Source of the DNA: Chlorobiota bacterium
Lineage (GTDB): Bacteria; Bacteroidota; Ignavibacteria; OLB7
Direction of reading: 5' to 3'
Length of the DNA: 64,000 bases
NCBI GenBank assembly: GCA_028287785.1
Contig: JAQBOZ010000022.1
Location: 1 to 64,000 of the forward strand
Shown: positions 1,999-47,243 of the stretch, piece after piece
Layout: each line of letters begins with the position of its first letter
Position numbering within the stretch: position 1 is the first letter of the stretch
The notes under the pieces: generated by a model
The model's database searches: none
What the model was told of the DNA's origin: nothing
Seen by the model: only the letters and a program-made list of their open reading frames with translations
Translations under genes and position numbers: made by a program

Positions 1999-2136
1999 CC
2001 TTCCTCCGATGGGCTCTGCCCGATTGATGCTGGCTGATACGGTTTCGATTCATCGATATCTCTCTTAATCCCCCTTGCATTGAGTAATGGGGCTCGTTCA
2101 TAGACGGAGCGAGAATCCATTGGTTATCGCAGACTA

Positions 2137-2778
2137 TTACGTAACCCTGAGTATGATCTTGCTTCCATCAGGCAGACCGTGAGTCTTCCGCGCCAGAAAT
2201 CCATAGAAATGCATCGCTTTGACGGCATCCAATTGAAAGAGGTTATCAACCTCATACTTGCCTCCAAAGATAAACGGGATCTTCGGAACCAAGCGGTTTC
2301 CCGCACTCAGCTGCCCATGCTTGCGCTGCCACTCGACAGACAAAGTATAACCTGTTAGAATATTCCCTCTGCTGGGATCGAGAATTGCCCGCGCCCACTC
2401 CTCCAGACTGGATGCAATGACCTCAACCTCGGCGGTTTCGGGATTAAAGACGCCGATTCCCGACCTGGTCAGACAGAATTGTCCACCAAAAATGTCCGCG
2501 GCAAAGAAAAACAAATCGTCCGTTAATTCCCCATATTCCGCTCTCCATAATTCCGTTGAATTCCATGAGAGAAGACAATCGTTTGCTGCCCCCCCGGCGA
2601 GTGGGTAGACATGAAGAGCCTGGGACAGCGCATAGAAGCCATTCCTGATCAGCAACAATTCCGATAGAGAACGAAGGTGTAGGGAATGGAGACCCATTGA
2701 AATGCCGGGAAGGTCCGGCGCCCCCAGTGCCGGGGAAGCCATTGCACACAATTGTGATAATGCATCAACCGGCTTCAT
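2137..2778 (-). CDS. SMI1/KNR4 (SUKH)-like protein, candidate immunity protein
   Basis: 213 residues with no signal peptide. The central block, residues about 70-140, reads LLSWNSTELWRAEYGEL then FFFAADIFGGQFCL, a short turn, and FNPETAEVEVIASSLEEWA. This is the layout of SMI1/KNR4 (SUKH superfamily) proteins: a FGGQF-type strand-turn, a 'G..FNPETAEVE' strand pair and a 'SLEEW' helix. SUKH proteins are frequent immunity partners of polymorphic toxins. The gene sits 201 bases downstream of, and in the same orientation as, the DUF4157-peptidase gene, the usual toxin-then-immunity order. The family call rests on pattern, not a search. The immunity role is inference. Confidence 0.6.
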   Translation of the reverse strand: MKPVDALSQLCAMASPALGAPDLPGISMGLHSLHLRSLSELLLIRNGFYALSQALHVYPLAGGAANDCLLSWNSTELWRAEYGELTDDLFFFAADIFGGQFCLTRSGIGVFNPETAEVEVIASSLEEWARAILDPSRGNILTGYTLSVEWQRKHGQLSAGNRLVPKIPFIFGGKYEVDNLFQLDAVKAMHFYGFLARKTHGLPDGSKIILRVT

Positions 2779-2979
2779 TGCATTGCTCTTATGATGATCT
2801 GGGAAGTATCAGACAGCAGATATTCTCTGCACAGCGGACAAAATTATTCGGAATCGTTCCAACTTCCTCGCATAAGGCTGATCGCCCATCCAGGCCGATC
2901 TACTGGTTTCACGGCTTTTCACGTTTAGCGGATATAGTAAAGCACATCCTACCAAGCCCGTCACCCCCTGGCATCGGCA

Positions 2980-9306: not shown

Positions 9307-11292
9307 ATGCGTAGTTTGGGTCTGTTTTCCACGAAATCCTCCCGGACGGGAGCCAGGCTGCTGAAAGGCATCCTCATCCCCGTACTGGTTGCAGGTCCGC
9401 TGATGGCCGGAGAGGCCGTTGCACAGGGGATAGTCTACAGGGGCGGCAACGCAACGGTTGCCAGAAATGGCGCGGCCAACGATCCGGGCCGCAGCACCGT
9501 GGTCAGCCCCGGCACCGCGCATCGCCAGAGCAAGTCAGGCGGCGTTCCGGTTCATCGTTCGCTTCAGGCCGATCCGGCGCAGTACCGCGTCATGGATTCG
9601 CTGATCAACGCATTTTCCTATTACACCGGCGACCAGGAGCCGCTTGTCTACGATGCCGCCTCCGGCATTCTTGCCACCATCAAGCGTGGCTCTGTCGATG
9701 CAGCATCGGACAAGCTCTTCCTCCGTACCTCGACCGACATGGGGATGACGTGGTCGGCCCCGGTGCAGCTGTACGACGGAGCCCAGGGGAATGCCCGCTA
9801 TCCAAGCCTTGTGATTCTCAAGTCGGCGACATCGGACCCCAAGGAAGTCAGCTACTTCTTCACGGCTCCGATGGTGGAGGGGGACCAGTTCGGCAAGTTC
9901 GTCTCGGGGCTGGTCGATCCCCAGAAGAACGTCCTGGCAACCGTTGTGACCGATGGCGTCAACGGCGAGACGTGGAGCACCGGATCGCGCAACCTGCTCA
10001 CCAACGACAACAAGATGCTGATGACCGTCGGTGAGCTTTCCGGCAACAACATCGGCGTCAGGATATTCGACCTCGAAAGCGCCACGATCACCAAGAAGAT
10101 CCCTACGCAGTGGGACGGCACGCATTTCTCCGACCCCGGCACCCCCACCAGCCGCACCGCGGTTTCCGTGGGCATCGGCCAGGACAACGCCGACGCCATC
10201 TACTACGGCATCCTCTCCCGCTTCCCGAGCGCCGATGATCTCCCGAGCGGAATCCAGCCGTACCTGGCGGTCTCCAGGTCGACCGACAAGGGAGCCACCT
10301 GGAGCGATTTCGATGTCATCCCGAGAAAGGTGATGGAGGACTACGCCTCCGCGAACGGCATGGTCCCCGCGAATGTGCGGTTCTTCTACAATGAGGCCCA
10401 GGATTTCGCCGTGACCGGCACCAACAGCTACAGCTTCCTGGCCGATCTCAACGATTACGACGGCACGACTGTCAATGCCAGCCATCTTGTCGAGGCATAT
10501 CACGACAACGATGGATGGCATATGCGCAAGGTGTCCGATATCACCGGCAGCACCCTGAAGGTGATAGCCGATGAGACCGATACCACCGGCGCAAGCCAGA
10601 TGGGAAATGAGGTACAGCTTGCGCGCACGGCCGACGGCTCCAAGCTGATCGCCAAATGGACCGATCTGGTCTCCTATGTCTTCAATGGCGATATCGATGC
10701 CGATGGCGTCAGCCCCGACACCCTTACGACAACCGATGTGTTCATGTCGGCCCGGAGCCTCGCCAAGGATACATGGAGCCCCAGCCTCAACGTCACGAAC
10801 AGCCCGATCTTCGACCGCGTCACCTGGATTCCGAGAACGCTTCCCAATGATCTCTCGAATATTCCGCTGCTGACGCTTCAGCGCGATATGGCCGATACGA
10901 CCTACGAGACGCCGAACGATTCGCTCTTCCTGGATCAGCGCGATGTCTTCCGCTCGCAGTGGGTCACGATGTCCAATGTCAATATCTCTCAGCTTGCCGG
11001 CGTCGCCGAGCCGGTCGTGACCAGCCGCTCCGGCATGAAGCTCGAATCGGTCTATCCGAACCCGGCCGTCGGCCAGGCAACGATCCGCTTCACGACCACA
11101 GCCTCGGCCGATGTGTCGGTCGGCCTCTGGAATGTGCTTGGCGAACAGGTGATGACGCTGGGCGGCGGACGGATGGAGCCGGGGAACCACTCGGTCACGT
11201 TCAACTCCACCCTGCTTCCGGCGGGCACGTATTACTACACGCTCCGCTCGAACGGCGAGACCCTTACCAGGGCGTTTACCGTCATCCGGTAA
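9307..11292 (+). CDS. Secreted Asp-box (BNR-type) protein with T9SS sorting domain
   Basis: 661 residues. A Sec signal peptide of about 40 residues (basic start, then ILIPVLVAGPLMAGEAVAQ) precedes the mature part. Asp-box repeats of the SxDxGxTW type are seen in STDMGMTWSAP (near residue 140) and STDKGATWSDF (near 322), pointing to a beta-propeller like sialidases and photosystem assembly factors. The last 80 residues form a T9SS type A sorting domain: SVYPNPAVGQATIRF, NVLGEQVMTL, LPAGTYYYTLRSNG and a C-terminal Arg. The protein should be exported and attached to or released from the cell surface. No catalytic residues of sialidases are evident. It opens a run of four cargo genes and is followed by its own terminator. 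Confidence 0.87.
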   Translation: MRSLGLFSTKSSRTGARLLKGILIPVLVAGPLMAGEAVAQGIVYRGGNATVARNGAANDPGRSTVVSPGTAHRQSKSGGVPVHRSLQADPAQYRVMDSLINAFSYYTGDQEPLVYDAASGILATIKRGSVDAASDKLFLRTSTDMGMTWSAPVQLYDGAQGNARYPSLVILKSATSDPKEVSYFFTAPMVEGDQFGKFVSGLVDPQKNVLATVVTDGVNGETWSTGSRNLLTNDNKMLMTVGELSGNNIGVRIFDLESATITKKIPTQWDGTHFSDPGTPTSRTAVSVGIGQDNADAIYYGILSRFPSADDLPSGIQPYLAVSRSTDKGATWSDFDVIPRKVMEDYASANGMVPANVRFFYNEAQDFAVTGTNSYSFLADLNDYDGTTVNASHLVEAYHDNDGWHMRKVSDITGSTLKVIADETDTTGASQMGNEVQLARTADGSKLIAKWTDLVSYVFNGDIDADGVSPDTLTTTDVFMSARSLAKDTWSPSLNVTNSPIFDRVTWIPRTLPNDLSNIPLLTLQRDMADTTYETPNDSLFLDQRDVFRSQWVTMSNVNISQLAGVAEPVVTSRSGMKLESVYPNPAVGQATIRFTTTASADVSVGLWNVLGEQVMTLGGGRMEPGNHSVTFNSTLLPAGTYYYTLRSNGETLTRAFTVIR

Positions 11293-11356
11293 GAATCAGG
11301 GCCCCTCTGCTCCCAATCGGTTATGATTGCGGGAGCAGGCCGAATGTCGATAGTGA

Positions 11357-34155: not shown

Positions 34156-35595
34156 TCATCTTCTGACGACGAAGACGGCGGAGGATTCTCCGATCCGCGC
34201 AAGATATACTCCGTTCGGCAGCCGCGCCACGTCTATCGTGGTCCTGTCGTCGGAAACATTCCCGCTGTAGACCTGATGCCCGTACACGTCATCGATCTCG
34301 ATGCCCCCATGAAGCCCCGTCGATTCGATGGTCACGGTGGTGGACGCGGGGTTCGGGGAGATCCGAAGCGCCGACTGAGCCCGTTCCCCGGCAAGCGGCG
34401 GGGCCGACGCGACAGCGGAGCTCAACGGGATATCGGCGCGGACTTCCAGATATTTCCTCGTCCCGGGGATATCGATCTTCTCATGAATAGGCCCGTAGCC
34501 GGTGGCGGTGCCGTAGACATCGATCGACGACGACTCCCCCGCGTTGATCACAAGCGAATATTCGCCGGTGGCGGAATTGGTGGCCGCGCCGGAGATCACG
34601 CGACCGCTGGCGGAATCGACGAAGACGAGATCGGCGGGGATGCTGGCGCCGCTGGAGCGCTCGAACACGCGACCGGAGATCATCACGGTGGTGAGCGGCG
34701 GAGGGAGAAGCGCCATACAGATATCCAGGCGCATGTAGGCGGCATCGATCGTCCGCTCGGCGGAGAAATAGAGGATATCGCCGGAGGCCGGCAGCGTGAT
34801 AAATCGCTCATCCTTCGCAGTGTTGATCTTCCCCCCCAGATTTTCCGGCGTCCCCCACGATCCATCCTGGTTCCGCCTGGAGACGTAGAAATCGAGCCCC
34901 CCGAAGCCCCCCGGCCTGGCCGATGAAAAGTAGAGCGCCCCGCCCCCCGGCAGGATAAACGGGCTGTCCTCCCGATACGGGCTGTTGATCGTGGGGCCGA
35001 GGTTCCTCGGCGGCGACCATATCCCCGCGGCATCGCGGGTAGCGTAGTAGATATCGGCGTCGCCATCGCCGCCAATCGCTCCGGAGCGATTGGAGAGGAA
35101 GAAGATGGTCCGGCCATCGGAGGAGATCGATGGCTGGGAATCCCAGTAGATGGAGTTCAACTCCTTCAGGTCCCGCACCACGTTCCATGTGGTTCCGTCG
35201 AGACGCGCCTCGTAGATATCGCAGTCCCCCAGCCCGTCGGGACGGTTGCAGCCGGTGAAGTACATCGTCTGGCCGTCCGAGGAGATCGAAGCGACCCCTT
35301 CGTTGAGCTCGGTATTGATCGGGGGGCCGAGATTCACGGGAGGAGTAAAAACCGAGTCGAGGCGATTGGCTTTCGTCGTCACCCAGAAATCGTGCCCGCC
35401 GAAGCCCCCCGGCCGATTGGAGACGAAATAGAGCGTTCGCCCATCCCCCGTTACCGTCGGGGCGTACTCCAGGTCCGGGGTGTTGATGCCGAGGCGGATC
35501 ACCGTGGTATCCTGGGCATGGAGGCGCGCGGCGGAAATCGCCAGCAATATCCACGCGGAACAGAGAAGAAATCGATAAGAAATGAACGTGTTCAT
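34156..35595 (-). CDS. Secreted PD40 beta-propeller protein with T9SS sorting domain
   Basis: 479 residues with a signal peptide (LLCSAWILLAISAARLHAQ). Five or so WD40-like PD40 repeats follow: YAPTVTGDGRTLYFVSNRPGG, GVASISSDGQTMYFTGCN, SQPSISSDGRTIFFLSNRSG, DSPFILPGGGALYFSSARPGG and ERFITLPASGDILYFSAER. These are the 'P..spDG..lyF.S.R.GG' blades also found in TolB and OmpA-linked T9SS proteins. A carboxypeptidase-regulatory-like beta domain (ISGRVFERSSGASIPADLVFVD) follows. The C-terminal T9SS tail starts LRISPNPASTTVTIES and ends SSAVFVVRR. It should be surface-exposed. The gene upstream is a frameshifted paralogue. Confidence 0.88.
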   Translation of the reverse strand: MNTFISYRFLLCSAWILLAISAARLHAQDTTVIRLGINTPDLEYAPTVTGDGRTLYFVSNRPGGFGGHDFWVTTKANRLDSVFTPPVNLGPPINTELNEGVASISSDGQTMYFTGCNRPDGLGDCDIYEARLDGTTWNVVRDLKELNSIYWDSQPSISSDGRTIFFLSNRSGAIGGDGDADIYYATRDAAGIWSPPRNLGPTINSPYREDSPFILPGGGALYFSSARPGGFGGLDFYVSRRNQDGSWGTPENLGGKINTAKDERFITLPASGDILYFSAERTIDAAYMRLDICMALLPPPLTTVMISGRVFERSSGASIPADLVFVDSASGRVISGAATNSATGEYSLVINAGESSSIDVYGTATGYGPIHEKIDIPGTRKYLEVRADIPLSSAVASAPPLAGERAQSALRISPNPASTTVTIESTGLHGGIEIDDVYGHQVYSGNVSDDRTTIDVARLPNGVYLARIGESSAVFVVRR

Positions 35596-35642: not shown

Positions 35643-37084
35643 TTACTTTCTGACGACGAAGGCGGAGAGAACATCACCCACGCGCGCCAGATAAGCCCCG
35701 GCATCCAGCGCGGAAATGTCCAGCACTGCGTGGTCGGCGCTGAAATCGGCGAACGCCATCTCCTCGCCACGGCTGTTCTCGATCACCAGATGCTTCTTCC
35801 CGGATTCGTATTTCCCGGACGAACAATCCACGATCAGCGTGTGCGCCCCAGGGTTCGCAACCAGACGCACATCAGGCAGCAGGCCGCTCTCATCCTCGCT
35901 CCCCAGCGCGAAATCGGCGCGCGTGGCGGCCTGCGGCATCGACGGCGAAAGCGCCAGAGCGCGGCGGATCGGCCCGAAATCATCCACGGCGCCGTAGAGA
36001 ACGGCCGGCGTGGCATGATGGAGTTTCACATCGATTGAATATCCTCCCGCCGAATCGCTCACCGCGCCGCCGATCGCATGGCCGGTCACGGAGTCCACAG
36101 GATCAGCCCCGCGGGGAGGGCGCCGCCGGATGGACGATCGTACACCCGACCCGCGACATGCAGCGTAACGCCGGTCGGCGGAAGCAGCGCCATATAGAGC
36201 GCGATCTTCTGCCTGCCGCTGCCGGCGCGAGCCGAGGAGAAATAGATGACATCGGCGGATGGGGCCATCGTGATAAAGCGTTCGTCCTGCGACGAGTTAA
36301 GGGGGGCGCCGAGATTACGGGGCTCCCCCCAGCTTCCATCGGGATTCCGCCTGGAGACGTAGAAATCCAATCCCCCCATCCCTCCCCGCCGGTCGGAGGA
36401 GAAATAGAGGGAGCTGTCCGGCGCGATATACGGCGCGTCCTCCCTGGCCGGCGTGGTGATCGGCGGCGGCATCCGCTGGGGGTCGGCCCACGTCCCATCA
36501 TCCCGCCTGGTGGAGAAATAGATATCAGGGTCCTCGCCGCCGGTCAGCCCGCCCCGGTTGGAGGTGAAGTAGATGGTGTTGCCATCCGCCGAGATGCTCG
36601 GCTGCGCGTCCCAGTACAGCGTGTTCAACTCCATCACATTGCGCGCCGGCGACCACTCATCCCCATCAAGATGCGATTCGTAGATATCGCAGTCCCCCTT
36701 TCCATCAAGGCGGTTGCAGCCGGAGAAATAGATGGTCCTCCCGTCGCCGGTGATCGAGACGGCCCCTTCGCTCATGCGGGCGTTGATGTGGGAACCAAGG
36801 TTGAAGCAATGGGTAAAGACCGTATCGCGCGGGCTGGCTTTGGTCGCCCCCCAGAGATCGTGCGCTCCCATCCCTCCCCGCCGGTCGGAGACGAAATAGA
36901 GCGTGAGGCCATCGCCGGTAATGGAGGGAGCGTAGGTGTAGGCGGCAAGCGGATCGTTGATATTCTCCGCCAGCCTGATGATGACCGTATCCTGCGCGTG
37001 AAGCGCGCCGCACGCGGCAAGGCAGAATATCAGGATGGAGCGGGCGAGGAGCGGAGAAATTCGGCGCATCGGGGTCATGAGCAT
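35643..37084 (-). pseudogene. Frameshifted PD40/T9SS protein, paralogue of the neighbouring gene
   Basis: The frame starting at 37084 encodes a signal peptide and PD40 blades (YAPSITGDGLTLYFVSDRRGG, SQPSISADGNTIYFTSNRGG-like) and ends at 36086 as LPAGLILWTP. The continuation is in another frame from about 36098 to 35643 (VDSVTGHAIGGAVSDSAGGY, then a T9SS tail ending SAFVVRK). Aligning with the paralogue (ADLVFVDSASG) shows that one G is missing near 36097: CTG-ATC-CTG-TGG instead of CTG-ATC-CTG-GTG-GAC. Restoring it gives one reading frame of about 480 residues. Either a real inactivating mutation or a base-calling error; the sequence cannot say. Without the tail the product could not use the T9SS. 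Confidence 0.82.
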
Positions 37085-37269: not shown

Positions 37270-37923
37270 TCACCCGAAGCGATCGATCCCGAACGCATCA
37301 GCATCCACCGTCATGGTTCCCGGCTCCGGCCGGACACCGCAGAGCCAGGCCGTGAGGTTGTCGCAGAAATTATCGAGATGGGTGATCTGCCCCACTCCAT
37401 GCTCGACGATCGGATCGAGCGTGGTGGCGAGAAGCGTTCCCCCGTAACGGGTCGTCTGCCAGGTGATGATCTCCCCGTCGCCGTTGCGCTGAAGCACATC
37501 CGCCCCCTCCGGCACCCGCGTGTAGACGCCGTGCGTATGCCAGCAGGCATGGCGTGGAGCCAGCCCCTGAAAAAGAGGGTGCGCGTAATCGGTATCGGCC
37601 ACCGGCGGGTTGTTCGGCTCGGTCACCCACCACCAGTTGTTCACCGGACGGTCACTCCATTGCGCGTCGATCCATGCCGGAGAGCTGTCTCCTTCCACGA
37701 AGACCTTCCCTCCGGCGGCGAGAAATTCGTAGATGATATCCCGCCGCCGGGCAATCGCCTCATGGTTTGACTGGAATGGGATGGCAAGCGCGTCGAGAGA
37801 GGCTATCGACTCCCGCGTCAGATCGTGAATGTAGATCAGCCTGTAAAGCCCGCGATACTTCGGCGCGGTCGCAAATGCGTAGTGCGACCAGACGCCGTTA
37901 AAGAGTAGCCCGATTCCGCTCAT
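37270..37923 (-). CDS. ThuA/class I amidotransferase-like protein 2
   Basis: 217 residues, cytosolic. The order of strands and helices (RLIYIHDL, SLDALAIPFQSN, IIYEFLAAGGKVFVEGD, then ADTDYAHPLFQGL and TTRYGGTLLATTLDPIVEHG) is that of ThuA-like and glutamine amidotransferase-like flavodoxin folds. 'FLAAGGKVFVEGD' is where an amidotransferase would have its Gly-Cys-Gly nucleophile elbow, and no Cys is present, so hydrolysis by the usual route is unlikely. A Trp-rich NNWWWV and a CWHTHG follow. It overlaps the preceding gene by 26 bases and is the last gene of the operon. It is weakly similar in plan to that preceding gene, perhaps forming a heteromer. Function unknown. Confidence 0.6.
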   Translation of the reverse strand: MSGIGLLFNGVWSHYAFATAPKYRGLYRLIYIHDLTRESIASLDALAIPFQSNHEAIARRRDIIYEFLAAGGKVFVEGDSSPAWIDAQWSDRPVNNWWWVTEPNNPPVADTDYAHPLFQGLAPRHACWHTHGVYTRVPEGADVLQRNGDGEIITWQTTRYGGTLLATTLDPIVEHGVGQITHLDNFCDNLTAWLCGVRPEPGTMTVDADAFGIDRFG

Positions 37924-38536
37924 GATGCGCCCCCCTCCGTGCGATGTATCCGATGAGATTGTGATAGAGAAGACCAGGCCCTCCAGCCTCCCCGTCGTAA
38001 GAGCCGTCGCCGAGCGGCCCGCTCGCGGTGAGGATGATCGTGCCGGGCGTGGAGACCTCGTCGATGACGGCGATGGCCCGCCCCCAGGTATCGGCCAGCA
38101 GAACGTGGGCGGCGGGGTTGGGCTCGATATAGCCGCACGCCCACCAGCCGGAGATGCCGTGCGAGAAGATCAGCGTATCGATCTCCACCCCATCCATCAC
38201 GCCATGCCGGTCGGTCACGACGGCGTAGCGGACATCGCGGGTCGGCCTGCTGTTGTCCATGATCCAGCGGTTCCCCGGCACCCAGTTGGTAAACCAGCCA
38301 TCGAAGCACATCAGCGCGTGCCCGGCATCGAGAAATCGCGCGACCTTCTCCCTGACGCGGAGCATCGCGATATGATCGGAGCCGTTCGGGACGATGAGGA
38401 TATCGGCGCCGTCGAACACCGGATCGAACTCCGCGCCGATCCGCTCGAATCGGTATGCCACCGCATCGTTCGAGCGGAAGGAATGCTCCAGATAATGAAG
38501 CCCGTTATCGATTACCACGGCCCGCAGCATGGTCAT
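37898..38536 (-). CDS. ThuA/class I amidotransferase-like protein 1
   Basis: 212 residues without signal peptide. AVVIDNGLHYLEHSF, FDGADILIVPNGSDHIAM, then KVARFLDAGHALMCFDGWF follow the flavodoxin-like strand order of ThuA/PfpI/amidotransferase proteins. 'ADILIVPNG' corresponds to the strand before the oxyanion strand, and the 'LMCFDGW' segment has a Cys in the right neighbourhood but not in a GCxG elbow. The ATG at 38536 overlaps the radical SAM stop (ATGA), so translation is coupled. A carbohydrate-, lactam- or amide-processing role cannot be told. Position between a radical SAM enzyme and a sister protein points to a shared pathway. Confidence 0.6.
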   Translation of the reverse strand: MTMLRAVVIDNGLHYLEHSFRSNDAVAYRFERIGAEFDPVFDGADILIVPNGSDHIAMLRVREKVARFLDAGHALMCFDGWFTNWVPGNRWIMDNSRPTRDVRYAVVTDRHGVMDGVEIDTLIFSHGISGWWACGYIEPNPAAHVLLADTWGRAIAVIDEVSTPGTIILTASGPLGDGSYDGEAGGPGLLYHNLIGYIARRGAHHERNRATL

Positions 38537-39489
38537 TTCCCGGAAGGTTGAATCACCGGCAGGCCGAACTTCGGCCGCAGGGTGTCAATGTCATAATGCA
38601 GCTCGAAAAAGCGATCGCACCAGAGGCAGATATTCCCCTCCTCCGCCCCGCGCGCCATCGCCTCATCGCGGCTGATGCCGATCGATTCCCCCATCCCGTA
38701 GGGATCTCCCTGGTTGATCCTGCGGAATATCTCCGACCCGGCCACGCGCGCCAGCACATCGGCAACGCGCTGGCTCCGGGCATCGCCGAGAGGATATTTC
38801 GTGCCGGGGCAGCATGGGTTGATCTTCCAGAGCTGAATGGAGACCTCCTGCGCCAGCTCCGTGCCGCCCAGGAAACCACGGCCGCCGGAGGGTATCGCGC
38901 AGAAGTTATGGGTATGATCCTTCAGCCAGAGATCCTTCTCCATTGCCCGCCCGCGCGCCCAGTTGCCGCCGAGCCACATATCCTCGGTCGCCCCCCAGAA
39001 GCCGTAGCTGGCGGCATCGGGTTTCAGATAGTTCTCACGCTCGATCAGCGGATCGGTCTCATCGCCGGCCATGCCGCGCGAACGGAACAGCAGCGCCAGC
39101 TCATCGCGCCGCGATCCGGCCAGCTTGTGAAAGCGGTCGATGCTGGCGATATCGATCCGCGTGACGCCACGGCGAAGAAGCTCGTCCAGGATCGCGCCGC
39201 TGAGAAGATCGCCGTTGGTCTGGAGCATGATCTGCGCGCTCCCGCCGTATTTCCCGGCAAGCGCGTCCAGGATGGCGTAGAGCTTGGCGCGCTCCGCCAG
39301 CGGCTCGCCGCCGGAGAGGATGATCCGCCCGGCGCGCGCGGGAAGGTTCCCGACGACCCGAAGACAATCCTCCAGCGTCATCCGCTCGCCACGCGGGCCG
39401 GAGTCATTGTAGCAATGATCGCAGATATCGTTGCAGAGCTGGGTAAAGACCCAGTAGACCGATTCCACGGTGTCGAAATCATCATTCAT
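38533..39489 (-). CDS. Radical SAM enzyme with Cys-rich C-terminus
   Basis: 318 residues from the ATG at 39489; an ATG at 39510, overlapping the ATPase stop, would add seven. The [4Fe-4S] cluster motif is CNDICDHC (Cys19, 23, 26), the CxxxCxxC of radical SAM proteins. SGGEPL (about residue 62) is the SAM-binding GGE. The C-terminal part contains INPCCPGTKYPLGDARSQ and NICLWCDRFF, which may bind an auxiliary cluster as in SPASM/twitch domains. The enzyme would cleave SAM to make a 5'-deoxyadenosyl radical. Its position behind a complete importer suggests it modifies the imported compound. It is not a family with a function I can name. Confidence 0.85.
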   Translation of the reverse strand: MNDDFDTVESVYWVFTQLCNDICDHCYNDSGPRGERMTLEDCLRVVGNLPARAGRIILSGGEPLAERAKLYAILDALAGKYGGSAQIMLQTNGDLLSGAILDELLRRGVTRIDIASIDRFHKLAGSRRDELALLFRSRGMAGDETDPLIERENYLKPDAASYGFWGATEDMWLGGNWARGRAMEKDLWLKDHTHNFCAIPSGGRGFLGGTELAQEVSIQLWKINPCCPGTKYPLGDARSQRVADVLARVAGSEIFRRINQGDPYGMGESIGISRDEAMARGAEEGNICLWCDRFFELHYDIDTLRPKFGLPVIQPSGK

Positions 39490-39496
39490 GACCGCA

Positions 39497-40237
39497 TTAT
39501 TCCCGTTCATTGATCTGATCGCCGAGCGACCGCCAGAAATCCATCTCCCGCCGCGCGCCATACTCGGGATGAGCGATAAACTCGCTCTTGCTACTGAAGT
39601 GAAGCAGCCTCCCATCCCGCATATACGATATCCGGTCGCCGAGCAGGATCGCCTCCTTCAGATCGTGCGTGACAACAATGGAGGCGATGCCGTAATGCGC
39701 CGCCAGACGCTGAAACAGCCCCTGCATCGCGGCGCGGGTCTCGGCGTCCAGGTTGCTGAACGGCTCATCCAGCAGGAGCACCGATGGGTTGACGATCATC
39801 GCCCTGCCGAATGCTACCCGCTGCCGTTCGCCACCGGAGAGCTGGTGGGGCATCCTGCGCGCGTGCGTTGAAAGCTCCAGGCTCCCCAGCATCTCCTCCA
39901 CCCGTTCCCGAATGGTTGCTTCAGGAATCTTGCGGAGCCTGAGCCCGAAGGCGATGTTCTCGAAGATGTCGAGATGGGGAAACAGAAGCGCCTCCTGATA
40001 GATGTAGACGATATTGCGTCGCGCCACCGGCAGATCGTTGATGGCATTTTCCCGCAGCCGCAACTCCCCGCGATCGGGATCGACCAGCCCGGCAATGATC
40101 TTCAGCAGCGTCGTCTTGCCGCAGCCGGAACGGCCGAGAATCGCCAGCGTCTCCCGCTCGTCCACGGCCAGCCCGACATCGTTGAGAACCGGATGCCCGC
40201 CATAGGCCTTGTCGATATTCGATACCGTCAGCACCAT
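39497..40237 (-). CDS. ynjD: ABC importer ATP-binding protein (PotA/YnjD-like)
   Basis: 246 residues. Walker A is LGRSGCGKTTLL (near 36), the Q-loop IYQEALLFPH, the signature LSGGERQRVAFGRA, Walker B LLLDEPFSNLD and the switch His in VVTHDLKEA. The C-terminal RDGRLLHF is the strand after the switch, as in PotA/CysA/FbpC-type importer ATPases. It powers the two permeases encoded just upstream (13-base gap). The gene symbol follows the YnjB-like binding protein of this operon and is by analogy. Confidence 0.88.
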   Translation of the reverse strand: MVLTVSNIDKAYGGHPVLNDVGLAVDERETLAILGRSGCGKTTLLKIIAGLVDPDRGELRLRENAINDLPVARRNIVYIYQEALLFPHLDIFENIAFGLRLRKIPEATIRERVEEMLGSLELSTHARRMPHQLSGGERQRVAFGRAMIVNPSVLLLDEPFSNLDAETRAAMQGLFQRLAAHYGIASIVVTHDLKEAILLGDRISYMRDGRLLHFSSKSEFIAHPEYGARREMDFWRSLGDQINERE

Positions 40238-40250
40238 CGTCTGTCCGATC

Positions 40251-41036
40251 TTACATATATCGATAAAGAAATCGCCGGTTGGCCCAGAGCATGAGCACCG
40301 GCGGGATTATCAGCATCAGGCCGCTGAGCGCCGCGTACCGGATATTCGCCTCCCCGGCGTACATGAAGACGAGGAGCGGCAGGGTCTTCACCCGGCCGGA
40401 GCCGATCAGCAGCGTCAGGCCGTACTGGAACCAGGAAAGGAGAAACGTCTGCATAAGGCAGATCAGGAGCAGCCCGCGCGCGGCCGGCAGAAAGACCATC
40501 CGGTAGAGCTGCGGCCGGGACGCGCCGAGAAGCCGTGCCAGATCCTCCAGCGACCGCCGCTCGCGACTCCAGAAATTCGCAAAGAAGACCACCCCGAAGC
40601 CGAGGGCAAATGTCAGATGCGCGCACCCGACCCCGACCACGCTCCCGGCCAGGCCAAGCCGTATGTAGAGGATATGGATGCAGGCCCCCAGGATCACGGG
40701 GGACATCGCGAACGGCAGATACGCCAGGAACAGAAGCCGCCGCCTTCTCCCGCTGCGGGCGATATACCGGCTGGCGATAAAGCCGCCGAACGTGGCGACC
40801 AGCGCCACCGAGCCGGAGAGAAGCGTCGAGAGAAGAAGGCTCCATCCGAGCGAATCCCCCCCCAGCAGATCGATCCACGCGCCCAGGTTCATCCCCTCCG
40901 GCATCAGCCGCGGGAACATCCACCGGCCGGCGACCGAGAGGATGAGGAGATAGACGATCGGCAGGAGACAGATCGTTCCGACGATCCACGACATCGCTCC
41001 CCGGAATTTCCCGTTTCCGCGTTTACGCCTCATCAT
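40251..41036 (-). CDS. ABC importer permease 2 (YnjC-like half)
   Basis: 261 residues from the ATG at 41036, which overlaps the stop of permease 1 (ATGATGAGGCGTAA); the frame is open further but that part is the neighbour's coding region. Six predicted transmembrane helices: WIVGTICLLPIVYLLIL, LLLSTLLSGSVALVATFGGFIA and later segments. The EAA loop region, LEDLARLLGASRPQLYRMVFLPAARGLLL, has the EAA...G.........I..LP pattern that contacts the ATPase. It belongs to the binding-protein-dependent transport (BPD) membrane family. In E. coli YnjC the two permease halves are fused; here they are separate genes. Confidence 0.88.
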   Translation of the reverse strand: MMRRKRGNGKFRGAMSWIVGTICLLPIVYLLILSVAGRWMFPRLMPEGMNLGAWIDLLGGDSLGWSLLLSTLLSGSVALVATFGGFIASRYIARSGRRRRLLFLAYLPFAMSPVILGACIHILYIRLGLAGSVVGVGCAHLTFALGFGVVFFANFWSRERRSLEDLARLLGASRPQLYRMVFLPAARGLLLICLMQTFLLSWFQYGLTLLIGSGRVKTLPLLVFMYAGEANIRYAALSGLMLIIPPVLMLWANRRFLYRYM

Positions 41037-41886
41037 CCTTCCGCGCGCGACTGTAGGCAAGGGCAACCAGGGCAAGCGCAAGCGCCGTATAGAGGATCGC
41101 GCAGATAAAGGCCTCCGGCTTCTGCGCCAGATCGAAACGCGCATACTTCCGCATCGTCAGCACGGAGATCATCTGCGGCGTGCTGGGCCCAAGCAGCAGG
41201 GGGACTTCGTAGGCGCCGAGAACGCCGATGAACGTGAGGATGATCGTCGGGAAGGCACGGCGCAGCAGCAGGGGCACAACCACGCGCCGGAGCAGATCCA
41301 TCCTGCCGGCGCCGAGCGATTCGGCCAGCCCGCGCAGCTCCGGCAGCCGTTCGGCATCGTGAAGCTGCGCGAAGAGAATGGTGAAAAAGGGGACCGCCAC
41401 GAACATCTCGGCAAGGATGATACCGATTCCATACGGATCGTTGACAAGCCCCGGAAACCCCGAGGGATCGCTGATGATGCCGAGCGCCGCCGTTATCCGC
41501 GCAAGCAGCCCCGCGCCGGAGAGAATCTGAAAGAAGAGGAAGGCAAGCACGGTTCCGGGGAGCGCGATCGGCAGGTAGATCGTGTAGCCGAGACCGCCGG
41601 AGCGGAGCGAACGCCGCAGAGCAAGGGAAAGCCCGAGCGCCACGGCAACCGAGAACATCACCACCGCCAGCGCCACGCCGATGCTCATCGCGAAGGAGCG
41701 GACGATCTCGAAATCCTCCCCGAGCCGGCTCCAGTGACCCAGCGTAAAGCCCTCCCCCAGCAGCCCGGCCAGCCCCAGACTGTAGGCCACGGCGTAGAGA
41801 ATGCTCGCGCCGATCGGCAGCAGGGCAACCGCGACAAAGAGGAGAAACCCGGCGCGCTCGATGCCGCCGTTATTTCTCGATGACAT
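41023..41886 (-). CDS. ABC importer permease 1 (YnjC-like half)
   Basis: 287 residues from the ATG at 41886 (overlapping the binding-protein stop); an ATG at 41901 is possible. Six helices are predicted, starting GFLLFVAVALLPIGASILYAVAY. The EAA loop is ELRGLAESLGAGRMDLLRRVVVPLL, the usual 'EAA..lGA....l..vv.P' motif. It forms the membrane pore together with permease 2. Overlaps with both neighbours indicate translational coupling. Confidence 0.88.
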   Translation of the reverse strand: MSSRNNGGIERAGFLLFVAVALLPIGASILYAVAYSLGLAGLLGEGFTLGHWSRLGEDFEIVRSFAMSIGVALAVVMFSVAVALGLSLALRRSLRSGGLGYTIYLPIALPGTVLAFLFFQILSGAGLLARITAALGIISDPSGFPGLVNDPYGIGIILAEMFVAVPFFTILFAQLHDAERLPELRGLAESLGAGRMDLLRRVVVPLLLRRAFPTIILTFIGVLGAYEVPLLLGPSTPQMISVLTMRKYARFDLAQKPEAFICAILYTALALALVALAYSRARKDDEA

Positions 41887-43105
41887 TCTTCCTGAAATCA
41901 TCGGAGAGCCTGATCATATATTCGGGGGCAAGCTCCATCAGAGCCTTCGATTGAATGGCCGAACGCGGCGGAGCGTAGCGGCGACCCGGCAGCGCCGCGA
42001 ACCGCCCCCGCCATTCCTCCGGCAGCTTCGCCATGTCCAGCACGGTTCCATCCCCCCATACGTTGGGGTCCAGCTTTCGAAGCTGCGCCTCCGGCGATAT
42101 AAGGAAATTCGCCACCACCATCGCCCCGTCCGGGTGCGCGGAGTGCCTTGCTATCCCCATGAAGTGGCTGTTCTGGATGGTGCCGCTGTCCAGAACGTAG
42201 GCGCGGGCGGTCCCGGAGAAGAGCCCCTGAAGGATCTTGTTGTCCACCTCGCCGTCGTTGTTGCTCATCGAAAAATCGATCTCCCCACCGGCGAACATCT
42301 GATGGAGTTGCGCCACCTCCGCCGGGAAGGAGCGACCCTGTTTCCAGAAATAGGGCTTGATCCGGTTGAGATACTCCCAGAGCATCGCCGAATATCTGCG
42401 ATAGAGATCCTCGTTGAACTTCCCGGCCAGCGTCCGCTCCCCCCCCGCCAGATCGATCAACAGGCATTTCAGGAATGTCATGCCGGTGAAGGAGTTGTCG
42501 AACGTGAATTTCCCAGGGTGCGACCGCACATACTTCTCCAGCGCGACCATCGTTCCGGGAGGGTCCGGGACGCGGTTGGTATCGTAGATGATCGCAAGCT
42601 GGACATTCCCCCAGGGGCTCTCGTAGCCATCCACCGGCTGCTGAAAATCGGTGTTGATAAATCGGTTGCCGAAGTCCACGTACCGCGCGTTCGGGAGGCG
42701 ATCGACGAACGGGCCGTAGAGCGCCTTGATCTGCCGCAACTGGTAGAATGTCTCCCCGTTGATCCACATCATATCGTAGGCGCTTGGCCCATCCCCCGCC
42801 TCCATCTCGGTCATGAGCGTGGAGACGAGATTGTTCCCCTGCCCGCCCACGATGTTCAACGCGATGCCGTATCGCTCCTTCAGCGCCGGGATCACATAGC
42901 TCTTCATGTAGGCGTTGATATAGGGATCGCCCTGCCACATCGAAAGGGTCACGGTCTGGCCGCGGGCCCTCCTCTCGGTCTCCTCCCACGATGTGCCGCC
43001 GCGGGCGGCACTCTCCCTGTTGCCGGCATCACCTCCACCGCCGCATCCGGCAAGGGAGACAAGCATGATGATGAGAAGCCATGCGTTTCGATATCGTGCC
43101 ATCAT
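41870..43105 (-). CDS. ynjB: YnjB-like ABC transporter substrate-binding lipoprotein
   Basis: 411 residues from the ATG at 43105 (a second ATG at 43102); the open frame extends to 43192 but that part is a repeat element. The signal has a lipobox, LLIIMLVSLAGC. The mature protein shows the COG4134/YnjB pattern as I remember it: DMMWINGETFYQLRQ, GPFVDRLPNARYVDF, VDGYESPWGNVQLAIIYDT, HPGKFTF and GMTFLKCLL. E. coli YnjB is an uncharacterised binding protein suspected in thiamine-related uptake; that guess does not decide the ligand here. It binds substrate in the periplasm and delivers it to the two permeases. First gene of the seven-gene operon. Confidence 0.8.
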   Translation of the reverse strand: MMARYRNAWLLIIMLVSLAGCGGGGDAGNRESAARGGTSWEETERRARGQTVTLSMWQGDPYINAYMKSYVIPALKERYGIALNIVGGQGNNLVSTLMTEMEAGDGPSAYDMMWINGETFYQLRQIKALYGPFVDRLPNARYVDFGNRFINTDFQQPVDGYESPWGNVQLAIIYDTNRVPDPPGTMVALEKYVRSHPGKFTFDNSFTGMTFLKCLLIDLAGGERTLAGKFNEDLYRRYSAMLWEYLNRIKPYFWKQGRSFPAEVAQLHQMFAGGEIDFSMSNNDGEVDNKILQGLFSGTARAYVLDSGTIQNSHFMGIARHSAHPDGAMVVANFLISPEAQLRKLDPNVWGDGTVLDMAKLPEEWRGRFAALPGRRYAPPRSAIQSKALMELAPEYMIRLSDDFRKNVIEK

Positions 43106-43125
43106 TCCCTCATTGCTGAAAATCC

Positions 43126-43177
43126 GCGCGGGGCATCGCCCCGCGCAGCAGGAATTGCGCCCCTCCGGGGCTTGAGA
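43126..43177 (+). repeat. REP-like repeat family 1, copy c
   Basis: GCGCGGGGC-ATC-GCCCCGCGC hairpin, then AGGAATTGCGCCCCTCCGGG and GCTTGAG. It lies in the gap between the TonB receptor and the binding-protein gene, in antisense orientation to both. It accounts for the false N-terminal extension of the binding protein. Confidence 0.85.
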
Positions 43178-43226
43178 ACGGTTTTCCGCCAACGTTGCAG
43201 ATGGCGTTGTTCAAACAGCCTGTCGG

Positions 43227-46200
43227 CTAAAACTGATACCGTGCTCCAAACTGGAACTGCCGTGGCGCGCCGCTGCTCCGCTGGACGATCGGCGCCCCCT
43301 CCGGCCCCACCTGGATCTGATTGCTCTGCGTGGCGTTGTTGGTGTAGCCGCTCAGGTTCACCACGTTGAAGACATTGAAGATATCGGCGCGCAGCTCGAT
43401 GGAACTTCCCTCGCCGAGATGGATGGCGTACTGCGCGCCGAAATCGAAATCCTTCGACCAGGGGAGCCTGTCGCTGTTGCGCGTGACGCCGGGATAGCGA
43501 TCGATATTCCCCACATAGCCATCGCCGTAGGAAGTGCCGTCACCATTCAGATCGGTGGTGCCGTGGAACCCGACGGAATCGCGCGTGCCGAACTTCGTGG
43601 CATCGGCAACGCGGTTGATCGGCTGGCCGCTCTGCACAAGCGCCGCGAAGCTGATCGTCAGATCGCGAATCGGATAGTAGTAGAACACCGCGCTGATGAC
43701 ATGCGTCCGGTCGTTCACCGACGGCCCCCACTCCAGCCCGTAATTGTTGGCGTCGGCCGCCTTGAAGTTGATATCCTCCGTGTTGTTGTAGGAGCGCGCG
43801 AGCGTATACGAGACCCGGTAGCCGAACGGAGAATCCCCCTTCTCCCTGACGATGTTGATCGAAGCCGCCGAGTACGATGCCTTCCCGGCGGACTCCGTCA
43901 CAACGATGCTCCTGGCGCCGCCCGTCACCACCGCCACCGGACGGGTGGCATCGGCCTGCGCCTGCGTGCGGACCACGACGTTCGCCGGATCGACCTGATA
44001 GGGAGCCGGCGCGTTGAGGTCGCGAAGACGGAAGAGATCGCGCGATTCGGTGTGGATCAGATCGACATAGAAGAGCGTGTTGTCATCCACCTGATACTGA
44101 TAGCCGAGCGAGAACTGGTGGGTGTAGGGGTTCTGATACCCCTCGGGATTGAGGATGCGCCGTTCTCCGCTGCTGGCGGCCTGGCGCTGCTCCTGAAGCG
44201 TGGAGGAGACCGGCCCCTGGAGATACGTCACCCCCGTGGAGAGATCGGCGGTGACGTTGCCATCGAACACCACCTTGTCGATATCGGTGTTCGCCGGCAG
44301 AATCCCCTTGTCGACAAGCGCCCGTATCTGCTGGCGATAGCCGGCCGATGTGGAGTTCTGCTGGAGCGCGTCGCTGTAGATGGCGTAGAGGATCTTGTCG
44401 TAGAATATCCCGTAGCCGCCGCGGATCACGCTCCGCTCGTCCAGCTTGTAGTTGAAGCCGACGCGCGGGGCGATATTGTCGAGATCCCCCCTGTCGCCCC
44501 CTCCCACGCTGAGATTATCATAGTCATACCGAAGCCCCAGCGTAAGATTGAGATCGCTGCTCAGCGAGAAGCGATCCTCCGCGTAGAGGCTGATCACATT
44601 CTGCCGCTTGCCGAACGATGCGGGGCGCAGTTCCACGCTGTAGGCAAGGACGCGCGCATCGTTCGGGATATCGTGGATGTCGAGCGCGGACCCACGGTGG
44701 AGCGCAGCAATCGCGCGCTCCTGATCGCCGGTCAACTGCACCGTGTAATTCCCGTTCGGATTGCCGCCGCCGCTGAGCGCGAAATCGGCCGAGAGAAGCT
44801 CCGCGCCGAACTTCAGACGGTGATTGTCGAGATTGAAGGTGAACTTCTGCTGAAGGTCGATCGTGTTCTCCACATCGTCGAACACATAGCCGGGATGGCC
44901 GAGCGTGGCGAGCGGGAGAGCGGCGGAGTCCAGCAGATACACCTGCGGGCTTGCGTTGTCCAACGGCCGCGCGTAGTTCCAGCGAAAACGGCTGTACTGG
45001 ATGTTCCCCTCATAGGTGAATTTCTCGCCGGTATAAATATTCTGCGACGCCACCAGCAGCGAGTTCCGGTCCTGCGTGTTCGCCGCCGATGGGAAGGTGC
45101 TGCCCCCCTCCAGGCCTCCCCCCTGCCGCTCGATATTCACCAGCCCAAGATCTGCGCGGAGCGATGAAACGAAACTGTTGTTCCAGAACTGGGTGAGCTT
45201 GAGCGACCCGAGCGAGAAGCTGTTCTTTCCCCGCACCGTCTCGTTGATGCCGAGCTGCGGCACGTTCAGGAGATTATCCTTTGTGTCAAATGTCTGCTCG
45301 AGATTCGCGTAGAAGAATGTTTTGTCGTGAACGATAGCCCCTCCCAGCGCGGCGCCGAACTGGTGGCGCATAAACCCATCCTTCACCTGATTTCCCGAAA
45401 GATCGTGCTGCGCGTAGGGGCTGGACGCGTCGATCACGCTGCCGGGGCGGGTCAGATAGAACACCTCGCCGGTCAGCGTGTTGCTCCCCGATCTGGTGGT
45501 GATATTGAAGATGCCGTTGCCGGTCCTGCCGAACTCCGCCGAATAATTGTTGGTCAGCACGGAGATGGTCTGCGTGAACCCCACCGGCATCGGGAACTTC
45601 TCACCCCCCAGAAAATTTTCGTTGTTGTCCATCCCGTCGATCAGATAGCTGGCGTACAGGCCGTTGACGCCGTTGATGCTGACATTCGGGGCCTCGCTGA
45701 AAAAGCCGGTGGCCTTTGTCACGTTCGGCAGGCGGTAGAGCGCTCGCGTGATATCGCGCCCCTCCACCGGAAGGTCCTCCACCTGACGGCGGCTGATGGT
45801 GGAGGATACCTCGGCGTTGATGGTGTTGAGGCCCGCCTCCCCCTTCCCGCCGATGACCGTCACGCCCGAGAACTGGACGCTCTTGATGGGGACCAGCAAA
45901 AGACTGACGCTCCGGTCGGTCCCGGAACGAAGGGTGATCCCCCCAAGCTCTCCCTGATTGAACCGGTCATCCGCCGCCGTGCTCACCCTGTAGATCCCGG
46001 ATGTGGTAAGCCCCTCGAAGCGCGCCTTCCCCTGCTCATTGCTTTTCCGCGTGGCGCCGTAGCCGATGCCCGTGTTCTCCAGCCGCACATCCATGCCGGC
46101 AACCGGCGTTCCGGTCGATGCGTCGATGACCGAAACCTCGATGCTCTGCGCGTGAGTGGCGATGCCGCCGATGACCACGATGGCCGATGCGATAAGGAAT

Positions 46201-46280
46201 GACCGGATGCCCAGCGTTCCGCGCATGGCGCGCCGCGCGGCGCCGGACAACGCCGGAGAATATTCTGTATGATCCTTCAT
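43227..46280 (-). CDS. TonB-dependent receptor with N-terminal carboxypeptidase-regulatory-like domain
   Basis: 1017 residues from the ATG at 46280; the frame runs further up but has no family features there. After a signal peptide (FLIASAIVVIGGIATHAQ) comes a CarboxypepD_reg-like domain (SIEVSVIDASTGTPVAGMDVRL to GIYRVSTAAD). The plug domain follows (SRRQVEDLPVEGRDITRALYRLPNV to SINGVNGLYASYLIDGMDN), then a beta-barrel ending in an aromatic residue (PRQFQFGARYQF). This is a SusC/RagA-like or Oar-like outer-membrane receptor; GRTGNGIFNITTRSGSN is typical of Oar-like proteins. No canonical TonB box could be placed. Lying 121 bases before the binding-protein start and on the same strand, it may deliver the ABC importer's substrate across the outer membrane. 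Confidence 0.9.
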   Translation of the reverse strand: MKDHTEYSPALSGAARRAMRGTLGIRSFLIASAIVVIGGIATHAQSIEVSVIDASTGTPVAGMDVRLENTGIGYGATRKSNEQGKARFEGLTTSGIYRVSTAADDRFNQGELGGITLRSGTDRSVSLLLVPIKSVQFSGVTVIGGKGEAGLNTINAEVSSTISRRQVEDLPVEGRDITRALYRLPNVTKATGFFSEAPNVSINGVNGLYASYLIDGMDNNENFLGGEKFPMPVGFTQTISVLTNNYSAEFGRTGNGIFNITTRSGSNTLTGEVFYLTRPGSVIDASSPYAQHDLSGNQVKDGFMRHQFGAALGGAIVHDKTFFYANLEQTFDTKDNLLNVPQLGINETVRGKNSFSLGSLKLTQFWNNSFVSSLRADLGLVNIERQGGGLEGGSTFPSAANTQDRNSLLVASQNIYTGEKFTYEGNIQYSRFRWNYARPLDNASPQVYLLDSAALPLATLGHPGYVFDDVENTIDLQQKFTFNLDNHRLKFGAELLSADFALSGGGNPNGNYTVQLTGDQERAIAALHRGSALDIHDIPNDARVLAYSVELRPASFGKRQNVISLYAEDRFSLSSDLNLTLGLRYDYDNLSVGGGDRGDLDNIAPRVGFNYKLDERSVIRGGYGIFYDKILYAIYSDALQQNSTSAGYRQQIRALVDKGILPANTDIDKVVFDGNVTADLSTGVTYLQGPVSSTLQEQRQAASSGERRILNPEGYQNPYTHQFSLGYQYQVDDNTLFYVDLIHTESRDLFRLRDLNAPAPYQVDPANVVVRTQAQADATRPVAVVTGGARSIVVTESAGKASYSAASINIVREKGDSPFGYRVSYTLARSYNNTEDINFKAADANNYGLEWGPSVNDRTHVISAVFYYYPIRDLTISFAALVQSGQPINRVADATKFGTRDSVGFHGTTDLNGDGTSYGDGYVGNIDRYPGVTRNSDRLPWSKDFDFGAQYAIHLGEGSSIELRADIFNVFNVVNLSGYTNNATQSNQIQVGPEGAPIVQRSSGAPRQFQFGARYQF

Positions 46281-46457: not shown

Positions 46458-47168
46458 TCAGATGAGAGGTGGAGCGGTGAGAAAGATTCGGGTCAGCGCC
46501 TTTCTCCGCGATGCATGCACAGGCGGCGATGACGGAAGCGCGCGCGACGAGCCATCGGCATGGCCGCCGAAGAGGAGACAGAGCGCGCGATGGGCCCGAA
46601 GATCATTCCATGAATCGAAATCGGGGCGGACCACCACAAGCCTGTCGGCGCCGGGCATCTCCAGAAGCGACGCGAAGAGCCGTGGTGTACACCAGGGAAG
46701 GCGCAGGAAGGAGGGGATATCGAGGGCTTCGGCGCGCGCGGCGATCAGAAAGGCGCCGCCATCGCTGGCGGGGGCCGCAACCACCCCGGCCCCGGCCCGC
46801 AGCCGATCGAATGCCGACAGGATATCCTGCGGCGTGATGGTGGGGCAGTCGTTGCCGATGACGACGATATCGCCATAGCCGAGCGCCGCGGTATCGGTGA
46901 TGGCATTGGCGATCCGCTCGCCGAAACCGAAGCCGTGCTGCGGCAGAAAATGCGCCGCGCCATCGGGAGTGCTTCCGCCAACCACCACCAGATCGGTATC
47001 GCCACCGAACAGCCCACGCAGACGGGCCACGATGCGACGATTGAGCGCGGCATATCCTTCGGCACGATATCGCCTCGGAAGCGGCTTTACCAGCGCTTCG
47101 CTCCGCTCATTACGCACGAAGAGAACCACCGCGCGCCGCGGCTGTATGGAGGTTGATGTGTAGATCAC
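46458..47168 (-). CDS. DUF2064 / TIGR04282-type transferase
   Basis: 236 residues from a GTG at 47168; the frame can also start at a TTG at 47204, and no ATG is available. RAVVLFVRNERSEALVKPLP opens the nucleotide-sugar-transferase-like fold. PQHGFGFGERIANAITDTAALGYGDIVVIGNDCPTIT holds the family's 'GdlGeRm' and 'iG.DcP.l' motifs, the latter probably binding metal and nucleotide. Proteins of this kind are catalogued as 'rSAM/selenodomain-associated transferase 1' and often lie near radical SAM genes. Here one is on the same strand about 7 kb upstream of the radical SAM gene, with the TonB receptor between. The exact reaction is unknown. Confidence 0.75.
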   Translation of the reverse strand: MIYTSTSIQPRRAVVLFVRNERSEALVKPLPRRYRAEGYAALNRRIVARLRGLFGGDTDLVVVGGSTPDGAAHFLPQHGFGFGERIANAITDTAALGYGDIVVIGNDCPTITPQDILSAFDRLRAGAGVVAAPASDGGAFLIAARAEALDIPSFLRLPWCTPRLFASLLEMPGADRLVVVRPDFDSWNDLRAHRALCLLFGGHADGSSRALPSSPPVHASRRKALTRIFLTAPPLI

Positions 47169-47243
47169 ATGGGTTGCACTCTGTGGGAGATGGCGAATAT
47201 ACAATCTTTGTTCACATCTGGAATTCCGGCCATCCCTTCGGCG

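Follow-up and report, generated by a model that had tools for sequence, protein, structure and literature searches.

A conserved Bacteroidota block of TonB receptor, YnjB-like importer and radical SAM enzyme as a candidate operon for the uptake and processing of 5′-modified ribosides

Among the organic arsenic compounds of algae, arsenosugars are a major group; a compound of this type, a 5-deoxy-5-dimethylarsinoyl riboside, is the arsenic analogue of methylthioadenosine. We know of no bacterial genes that are established for arsenosugar uptake or breakdown and of no proven substrate for YnjBCD, an importer of Escherichia coli that consists of a solute-binding protein (SBP), permeases and an ATPase. 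BtrN, on the enzymatic side, is a characterised twitch-type sugar-alcohol dehydrogenase of the radical S-adenosylmethionine (SAM) class. According to PMC12159101, which cites Cheng et al. 2021 on ArsS, a radical SAM enzyme adenosylates arsenic in oxo-arsenosugar biosynthesis. Here we describe a block of minus-strand genes in a 64,000-nucleotide stretch of DNA from a Chlorobiota bacterium (contig JAQBOZ010000022.1, hereafter the window), which lies on contig C20 of a 4.75 Mb genome. From 47204 downwards the block encodes a DUF2064 protein, a TonB-dependent receptor, a YnjB-like SBP, two permeases (permB and permC) and the ATPase of an ATP-binding cassette (ABC) importer, a radical SAM enzyme and two ThuA-like proteins, ThuA1 and ThuA2 (Table 1). 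Judging from sequence and genomic context, the block may be an uptake-and-processing operon for a 5′-modified riboside or nucleoside, with a compound of the arsenosugar type as our best guess, a reading that we hold with about as much confidence as doubt.

Open reading frames (ORFs) were called mechanically and the start codons of several genes were refined. With the chosen starts, each gene from the SBP down to ThuA2 either shares 4-32 bases with its neighbour or is separated from it by 13, and the spacers are 177 bases between DUF2064 and receptor and 121 bases between receptor and SBP. A preliminary description of this DNA had listed seven overlapping or nearly touching genes with the receptor upstream of them; all of these ORFs are present at the coordinates that it gave and the tight packing was confirmed, but the DUF2064 gene that opens the block lay outside its range. 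Relatives of the radical SAM enzyme were scanned in 84,980 species genomes, which gave at least 241 loci, and the best 80 of the 241 were fetched. Locus counts refer to these 80 and are lower bounds, as contig ends truncate some of the loci; kinship in the counts is accounted for by trees only. The ATPase gene is present at 73 loci, permC at 70, the SBP and permB at 69 each, the receptor at 63 and DUF2064 at 52, the last being still better conserved than the ThuA pair. With 63 to 73 of the loci keeping the receptor and ABC genes, the block is a conserved unit and not unique to one genome, and the receptor is a conserved neighbour. No further neighbour is conserved across most of the loci within ±10 kb, and the block therefore appears self-contained. 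The hosts are mostly Bacteroidota, with Kapaibacteriota and Acidobacteriota (Acanthopleuribacter, Sulfidibacter) also represented, and single metagenome-assembled genomes labelled Armatimonadetes, Thalassovita and Gammaproteobacteria branch among the rest and may be binning errors. The gene set of the module is bounded, and cultured hosts can be named (Hymenobacter, Pontibacter, Fibrisoma, Phaeodactylibacter). In a sample of 296 genomes of the phylum, the radical SAM enzyme was matched in seven, in G239 only distantly.

The SBP is absent from seven radical SAM genomes, yet in six of the seven the receptor and/or DUF2064 is encoded, be it at the locus or in another place, and at L033 and L063 the SBP-permease-receptor half is located elsewhere in the assembly. 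Because the partners persist when the SBP is missing or the locus is split, the core as read from gene content is DUF2064, receptor and radical SAM, with the ABC set usual and the ThuA pair optional. A phage origin was rejected (0 of 33 viral candidate stretches encode a relative), and no plasmid match was found for the block. As the preliminary description had suspected, the open-access literature yielded no account of a system composed of these genes, and it also held nothing relevant on YnjBCD with a radical SAM enzyme, on DUF2064, or on arsenosugars with TonB or ABC transport.

A profile of the module's DUF2064 proteins picked up full-length relatives where the radical SAM enzyme is missing from the genome, and these revealed sister modules. 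Type B has DUF2064, the importer and a nucleoside hydrolase, mostly with an MTRK-like kinase (G162, G158, G064, G182), or, without ABC genes, DUF2064, receptor, kinase and hydrolase (G154, G142). Type C has DUF2064, receptor and an MTAP-like phosphorylase, mostly with an MTRK-like kinase, and occurs both with ABC genes (G274, and G013 and G131 in two loci) and without them (G195, G199, G147). ABC genes with an MTAP-like enzyme are also found in G030 and G085. The DUF2064-receptor loci without ABC genes that carry enzymes of these kinds number five. Sixteen genomes of the phylum sample have the SBP. Six of them have a radical SAM enzyme (five of the window's family, G239 divergent) and none of the six has a nucleosidase or kinase in the module, whereas in nine of the ten without it the genes clustered downstream of the ATPase include one for an MTAP-like phosphorylase or for a nucleoside hydrolase, with an MTRK-like kinase additionally in six of those nine (2 × 2 exact test, about 9e-4, worked out by hand with kinship ignored). 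Among 87 radical SAM loci or windows there is no nucleoside hydrolase, the only MTRK-like gene is at L101, and the sole phosphorylase match, at L026, is weak (26%) and about 6 kb distant. The same importer and/or receptor followed by either a nucleosidase and kinase or a radical SAM enzyme would imply a common substrate class, 5′-modified ribosides, and we infer that the radical SAM enzyme replaces in this slot enzymes for 5′-modified nucleosides.

In this arrangement the sister modules resemble MTA/MTR salvage by MTAP and MTR kinase, carrying MTAP-like and MTRK-like enzymes where the radical SAM enzyme sits, but their scores are far under the equivalog cut-offs (MTAP 97-107 against 275, MTRK 88-120 against 275, and Rih 82-87 against 382) and the window's own module is without such enzymes. 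Because of these scores the sister enzymes look like relatives of MTAP, MTRK and Rih with another substrate. The occupation of the slot by MTAP-, MTRK- and nucleoside-hydrolase-like enzymes would also suit a salvage of arsenic-free 5′-modified nucleosides (such as methylthioadenosine or 5′-deoxyadenosine), transported in the same way, with a gain of sulfur, purine or carbon, where the ArsS link described below would reflect a shared 5′-substituted ribose chemistry. The lack of ArsS enrichment and the rarity of classical ArsM agree with such a salvage. Yet the low MTAP and MTRK scores speak against it, and it leaves unexplained why the tailed DUF2064 stands beside ArsS in seven loci and why ArsS follows ThuA2 at L023/L024, so that we regard it as possible but rather doubtful.

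For the arsenosugar-type substrate that we favour, the arsenic identity is drawn from the shared DUF2064 subfamily and the adjacency of ArsS. The ArsS/arsenosugar cluster (TIGR04167, TIGR04169, TIGR04282, TIGR04283, AsSugarArsM) has in common with the module a subfamily of DUF2064 proteins with a characteristic C-terminal tail, and this tailed subfamily lies beside ArsS in seven sampled loci (sister type D). In the DUF2064 tree, which comes from a quick search and has some long branches, the ArsS-linked members are found at two places in the tailed clade, one of them with the window's protein. On contig C19 of the window's own genome (66946-69189; L170 6938-9187), ArsS, which scores 414.8 bits against a cut-off of 300, is clustered with a TIGR04169-like gene and with a gene for a tailed DUF2064 protein that is 49% identical to that of the window (P0009); from its gene content this set is a second, biosynthesis-type cluster. 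At L023 and L024, both close relatives, a TIGR04169 protein comes directly after ThuA2 (154.9 against a cut-off of 120 in L024), and the order in L023 is ThuA2, TIGR04169, an M19 peptidase and ArsS (418.6 against 300). ArsS clusters in the phylum also contain AsSugarArsM, and ArsM-like methyltransferases that score below cut-off stand after ThuA2 at L063 and L076. The module differs from the ArsS cluster in that it has an importer and a receptor and no ArsM, and its radical SAM enzyme is not ArsS, as it fails the 300-bit cut-off of TIGR04167 (its top score in any family is 39.7).

Several observations count against an arsenosugar importer of this kind. ArsS is found in 15 of 44 radical SAM genomes compared to 121 of 296 in the phylum sample and is therefore not enriched, and of 24 module genomes just four have classical ArsM, although the limit used is blind to the divergent AsSugarArsM type. 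The word arsenosugar in the names of TIGR04282 and TIGR04169 is an annotation by association. At L101 the radical SAM enzyme and an MTRK-like kinase share one module, so the two are not strict alternatives, and the seven genomes without the SBP indicate that some hosts can do without an inner-membrane importer of this kind. A general link to arsenic methylation was rejected on the ArsM and ArsS counts; an uptake arm, for its part, need not co-occur with the biosynthetic arm. We suggest tentatively that the operon could be the uptake-and-breakdown arm of Bacteroidota arsenosugar metabolism. Its importer would be the first one dedicated to arsenosugars, and its radical SAM enzyme, a new one, would open the arsenic riboside in place of nucleosidase and kinase, helped by the ThuA pair; the R(G/A)PP-tailed transferase would be shared with the ArsS arm.

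From what is known of the families, passage through the outer membrane would fall to the TonB receptor and passage on into the cytoplasm to the YnjBCD-like ABC importer. Once the compound is inside, the radical SAM enzyme may perform radical chemistry on the sugar, possibly a BtrN-like dehydrogenation, as the opening step that would be done in sister modules by a nucleosidase or phosphorylase and the MTR-kinase-like kinase. The DUF2064 transferase would act on the same compound family in uptake modules and in ArsS biosynthesis clusters, and the optional ThuA pair probably acts on the radical SAM product, a keto-sugar or related intermediate. Uptake across both membranes followed by radical alteration had already been put forward in the preliminary description; the conserved receptor, importer and radical SAM set fits this part, but the ThuA pair that it included is not core and no thiamine link was seen. 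If true, the proposal would also assign functions to importers of the YnjB type, a DUF2064 subfamily and a radical SAM family as yet without assignment. Should the arsenic part prove wrong, it is still unusual, and testable, that behind one importer a radical SAM enzyme changes places with nucleosidase and MTR-kinase-like enzymes.

The DUF2064 protein matches PF09837 with 60.9 bits (cut-off 25.8) and TIGR04282 with 61.8 bits, below the cut-off of 134, the range among module relatives being 54-106; by profile it matches 3cgx, a putative nucleotide-diphospho-sugar transferase (E 2.5e-33). Its tail consists of a variable stretch, R(G/A)PP and then one to seven residues. Within the final 20 residues, 40 of the 53 module proteins have the motif under a strict definition and 45 under a relaxed one, compared to 0 and 3, respectively, of 1040 other ORFs. 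Exceptions include PAPP in L023 and L024 and other-frame tails in L064 and L077. The deep relatives L019/L020 have KAPP, and the ArsS-linked and some other relatives end in KGSP or RGSP. Third codon positions vary, so the tail is conserved at the protein level, and a cause at the RNA or DNA level was ruled out. The tailed proteins form a single clade apart from canonical TIGR04282 (support 100). Such a tail might itself be the substrate, with DUF2064 serving as its fused precursor or scaffold, the radical SAM enzyme modifying it and the transporter handling the product. Its near-restriction to module proteins, its retention in module variants without ABC genes and as KAPP in L019/L020, and the twitch/SPASM-like cysteines of the radical SAM enzyme would fit such a peptide or protein modification. 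However, the tail is also present in modules and ArsS clusters without a window-type radical SAM enzyme, so it is not tied to that enzyme; moreover the block has neither protease nor exporter, and a search for a stand-alone tail peptide, as expected of a precursor of a ribosomally synthesised and post-translationally modified peptide, found none. We consider it improbable.

The receptor passes as a TonB-dependent receptor, with plug and barrel domains above cut-off (PF25183 216 against 30, PF07715 34.6 against 23.9, PF00593 39.4 against 27). The SBP passes the cut-off of the YnjB subfamily (NF008633, 393.8 bits against 203; PF13416, 70.6 against 27) and the lipobox seen earlier is indeed there. 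Only general matches were obtained for the permeases and the ATPase (PF00528, permB 35.7 and permC 26.2 against 26.4; PF00005, 120.9 against 25), the PotA, WtpC, PhnV and ModB models being below cut-off (permC is PhnV-like at 50 bits), and a PDB sequence search with the SBP and receptor gave no match at the limits used. The system resembles YnjBCD in its SBP, which is well above cut-off, and in the SBP-permease-permease-ATPase set, but adds the receptor, DUF2064 and either the radical SAM enzyme or nucleosidase/kinase. A TonB receptor together with an SBP of the iron-, thiamine- and phosphonate-like superfamily could alternatively belong to a metallophore loop, in which the radical SAM enzyme and DUF2064 make or change a chelator and the receptor and an importer of the iron/thiamine/polyamine type retrieve it. 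This is quite unlikely, as no exporter, assembly enzyme or conserved regulator lies within ±10 kb of the 80 loci and the nucleosidase/kinase replacement would have no explanation. The membership of the SBP in the YnjB subfamily had earlier led to thiamine, and uptake of thiamine or a pyrimidine precursor would follow from it. We find this very improbable: neither a THI box nor any other Rfam riboswitch, cobalamin included, was found in the window between 34 and 50 kb, no thiamine gene is among the conserved neighbours, YnjBCD itself has, to our knowledge, no substrate to point to, and the sister modules indicate 5′-modified nucleosides instead.

The radical SAM enzyme matches PF04055 (48.5 bits against 29.5), and its best NCBIfam match in any family is NirJ2 with 39.7 bits against a cut-off of 500. 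It reaches no curated NCBIfam family cut-off, that of any SPASM model included, and is unassigned. In an alignment of seven relatives (A1, numbered by its first row), the invariant cysteines are C19/C23/C26 of the CxxxCxxC motif, C197, C226/C227 and C288/C291, and the C-terminal ones (C, CC, CxxC) resemble a twitch/SPASM pattern. Relatives in a profile search of the PDB include BtrN, among the best (E 1.2e-6), and the peptide enzyme YydG. The likeness to BtrN and the twitch/SPASM sugar enzymes thus consists of this sequence relationship and one C-terminal set of extra cysteines, but the matched region is the radical SAM core domain alone.

Some neighbours of radical SAM relatives may be recorded here. 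A protein of about 120 amino acids with a CxLC motif (YNADSG...YPCxLCxITHG) comes directly after the radical SAM gene in 8 loci (L052 at 10967-11350, L054, L056-L059, L083, L094), and for its L056 copy neither Pfam nor NCBIfam gave a match. At L019 a second radical SAM protein (2128-3687; 519 amino acids, TrsS/Tes-like, below cut-off), accompanied by a TIGR04283 glycosyltransferase, stands beside the module's radical SAM and DUF2064 genes. L021 has a divergent radical SAM protein (33% identical) with its own SBP-permease-ATPase set, near genes for a porin O/P protein, a thioredoxin-like and a bicarbonate-transporter-like protein, and is perhaps an older sister system.

The two ThuA-like proteins of the window have no match of their own among Pfam and NCBIfam models, and PF06283 (ThuA) gave three matches among 18 ThuA1 relatives, none better than E 0.063, and matched no ThuA2 relative. 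AlphaFold (AF2) models from 18-row alignments, with a predicted local distance difference test score of 88.7 for ThuA1 and 91.1 for ThuA2, gave structure matches to 2gk3 (Z 14.8) and the ThuA-like 1t0b (Z 14.7) for ThuA1 and to 3rht (Z 14.3) and 1t0b (Z 13.1) for ThuA2. Both are thus predicted to have a ThuA/GATase1-like fold, and the earlier label ThuA-like holds for the fold but not for a family-model match; it is likewise in fold that they resemble the ThuA family (trehalose utilisation). They are distant homologues of each other, and among their invariant residues the WWxCG of ThuA1 and the WHxHG of ThuA2 occupy equivalent positions. The GCxG elbow, already reported missing, is in neither alignment (the aligned place reads CFDG in ThuA1 and VEGD in ThuA2), so both fail as class I glutamine amidotransferases, and because of this absence binding or lyase/isomerase-type chemistry appears more apt than amidotransfer. 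The pair is present at 28 of the 80 loci, ThuA1 and ThuA2 always together; by gene the counts are 28 and 29, one ThuA2 being a 33-residue remnant. That the two act as a pair, as first proposed, agrees with their travelling together, but they are accessory. Their position varies, being after the radical SAM gene in L022-L024, L055, L061 and L076, between permease and ATPase in Hymenobacter and Fibrisoma, between receptor and SBP in L077, L090 and L091, and between SBP and permease in L104, and their presence needs 12 changes on the radical SAM tree, at least 8 of them forced. Two of the 296 genomes of the phylum sample have ThuA2, and each of these also has the radical SAM enzyme; the same query found it in none of 27 module genomes that are without a copy at the locus. 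The remnant lies at L089 (about 6137), upstream of the SBP, while the close relatives L090 and L091 keep an intact pair; from this comparison it is a recent loss.

Table 1. Features of the block in the window, with family assignments and choice of starts
Feature	Coordinates	Strand	Remarks
DUF2064 protein, GT-A / CofC-like transferase fold family, TIGR04282-related	46458..47204	-	PF09837; start uncertain (TTG)
DUF2064 C-terminal tail motif	46467..46478	-	here TAPP, two residues before the C-terminus; most relatives have R[GA]PP
TonB-dependent receptor (CarboxypepD_reg, Plug, OMP_b-brl_4 barrel)	43227..46280	-	PF25183, PF07715, PF00593
YnjB-like solute-binding lipoprotein (SBP)	41870..43105	-	NF008633, PF13416; lipobox LAGC
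ABC permease 1 (permB)	41023..41901	-	PF00528; 32-base overlap with SBP
ABC permease 2 (permC)	40251..41036	-	PF00528 just under cut-off; 14-base overlap with permB; longest ORF from 41144, likely start 41036
ABC ATPase	39497..40237	-	PF00005
Radical SAM enzyme	38533..39510	-	PF04055; CxxxCxxC and C-terminal cysteines; longest ORF from 39615, likely start 39510 or 39489
ThuA1, predicted ThuA/GATase1-like fold, accessory	37898..38536	-	AlphaFold model and structure matches
ThuA2, predicted ThuA/GATase1-like fold, accessory	37270..37923	-	AlphaFold model and alignment; invariant WHxHG

Two further observations concern the surroundings of the modules. A protein of 160 amino acids is encoded between the ATPase and the MTAP-like phosphorylase in the sister modules L210 (12513-12995) and L212 (12028-12510), and the L210 copy has no Pfam match. 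Downstream of ThuA2 in the window lie genes for two PD40 beta-propeller proteins (34156-35595 and 36086-37084), which are outside the module in relatives, and the first of these carries a type IX secretion sorting tail.

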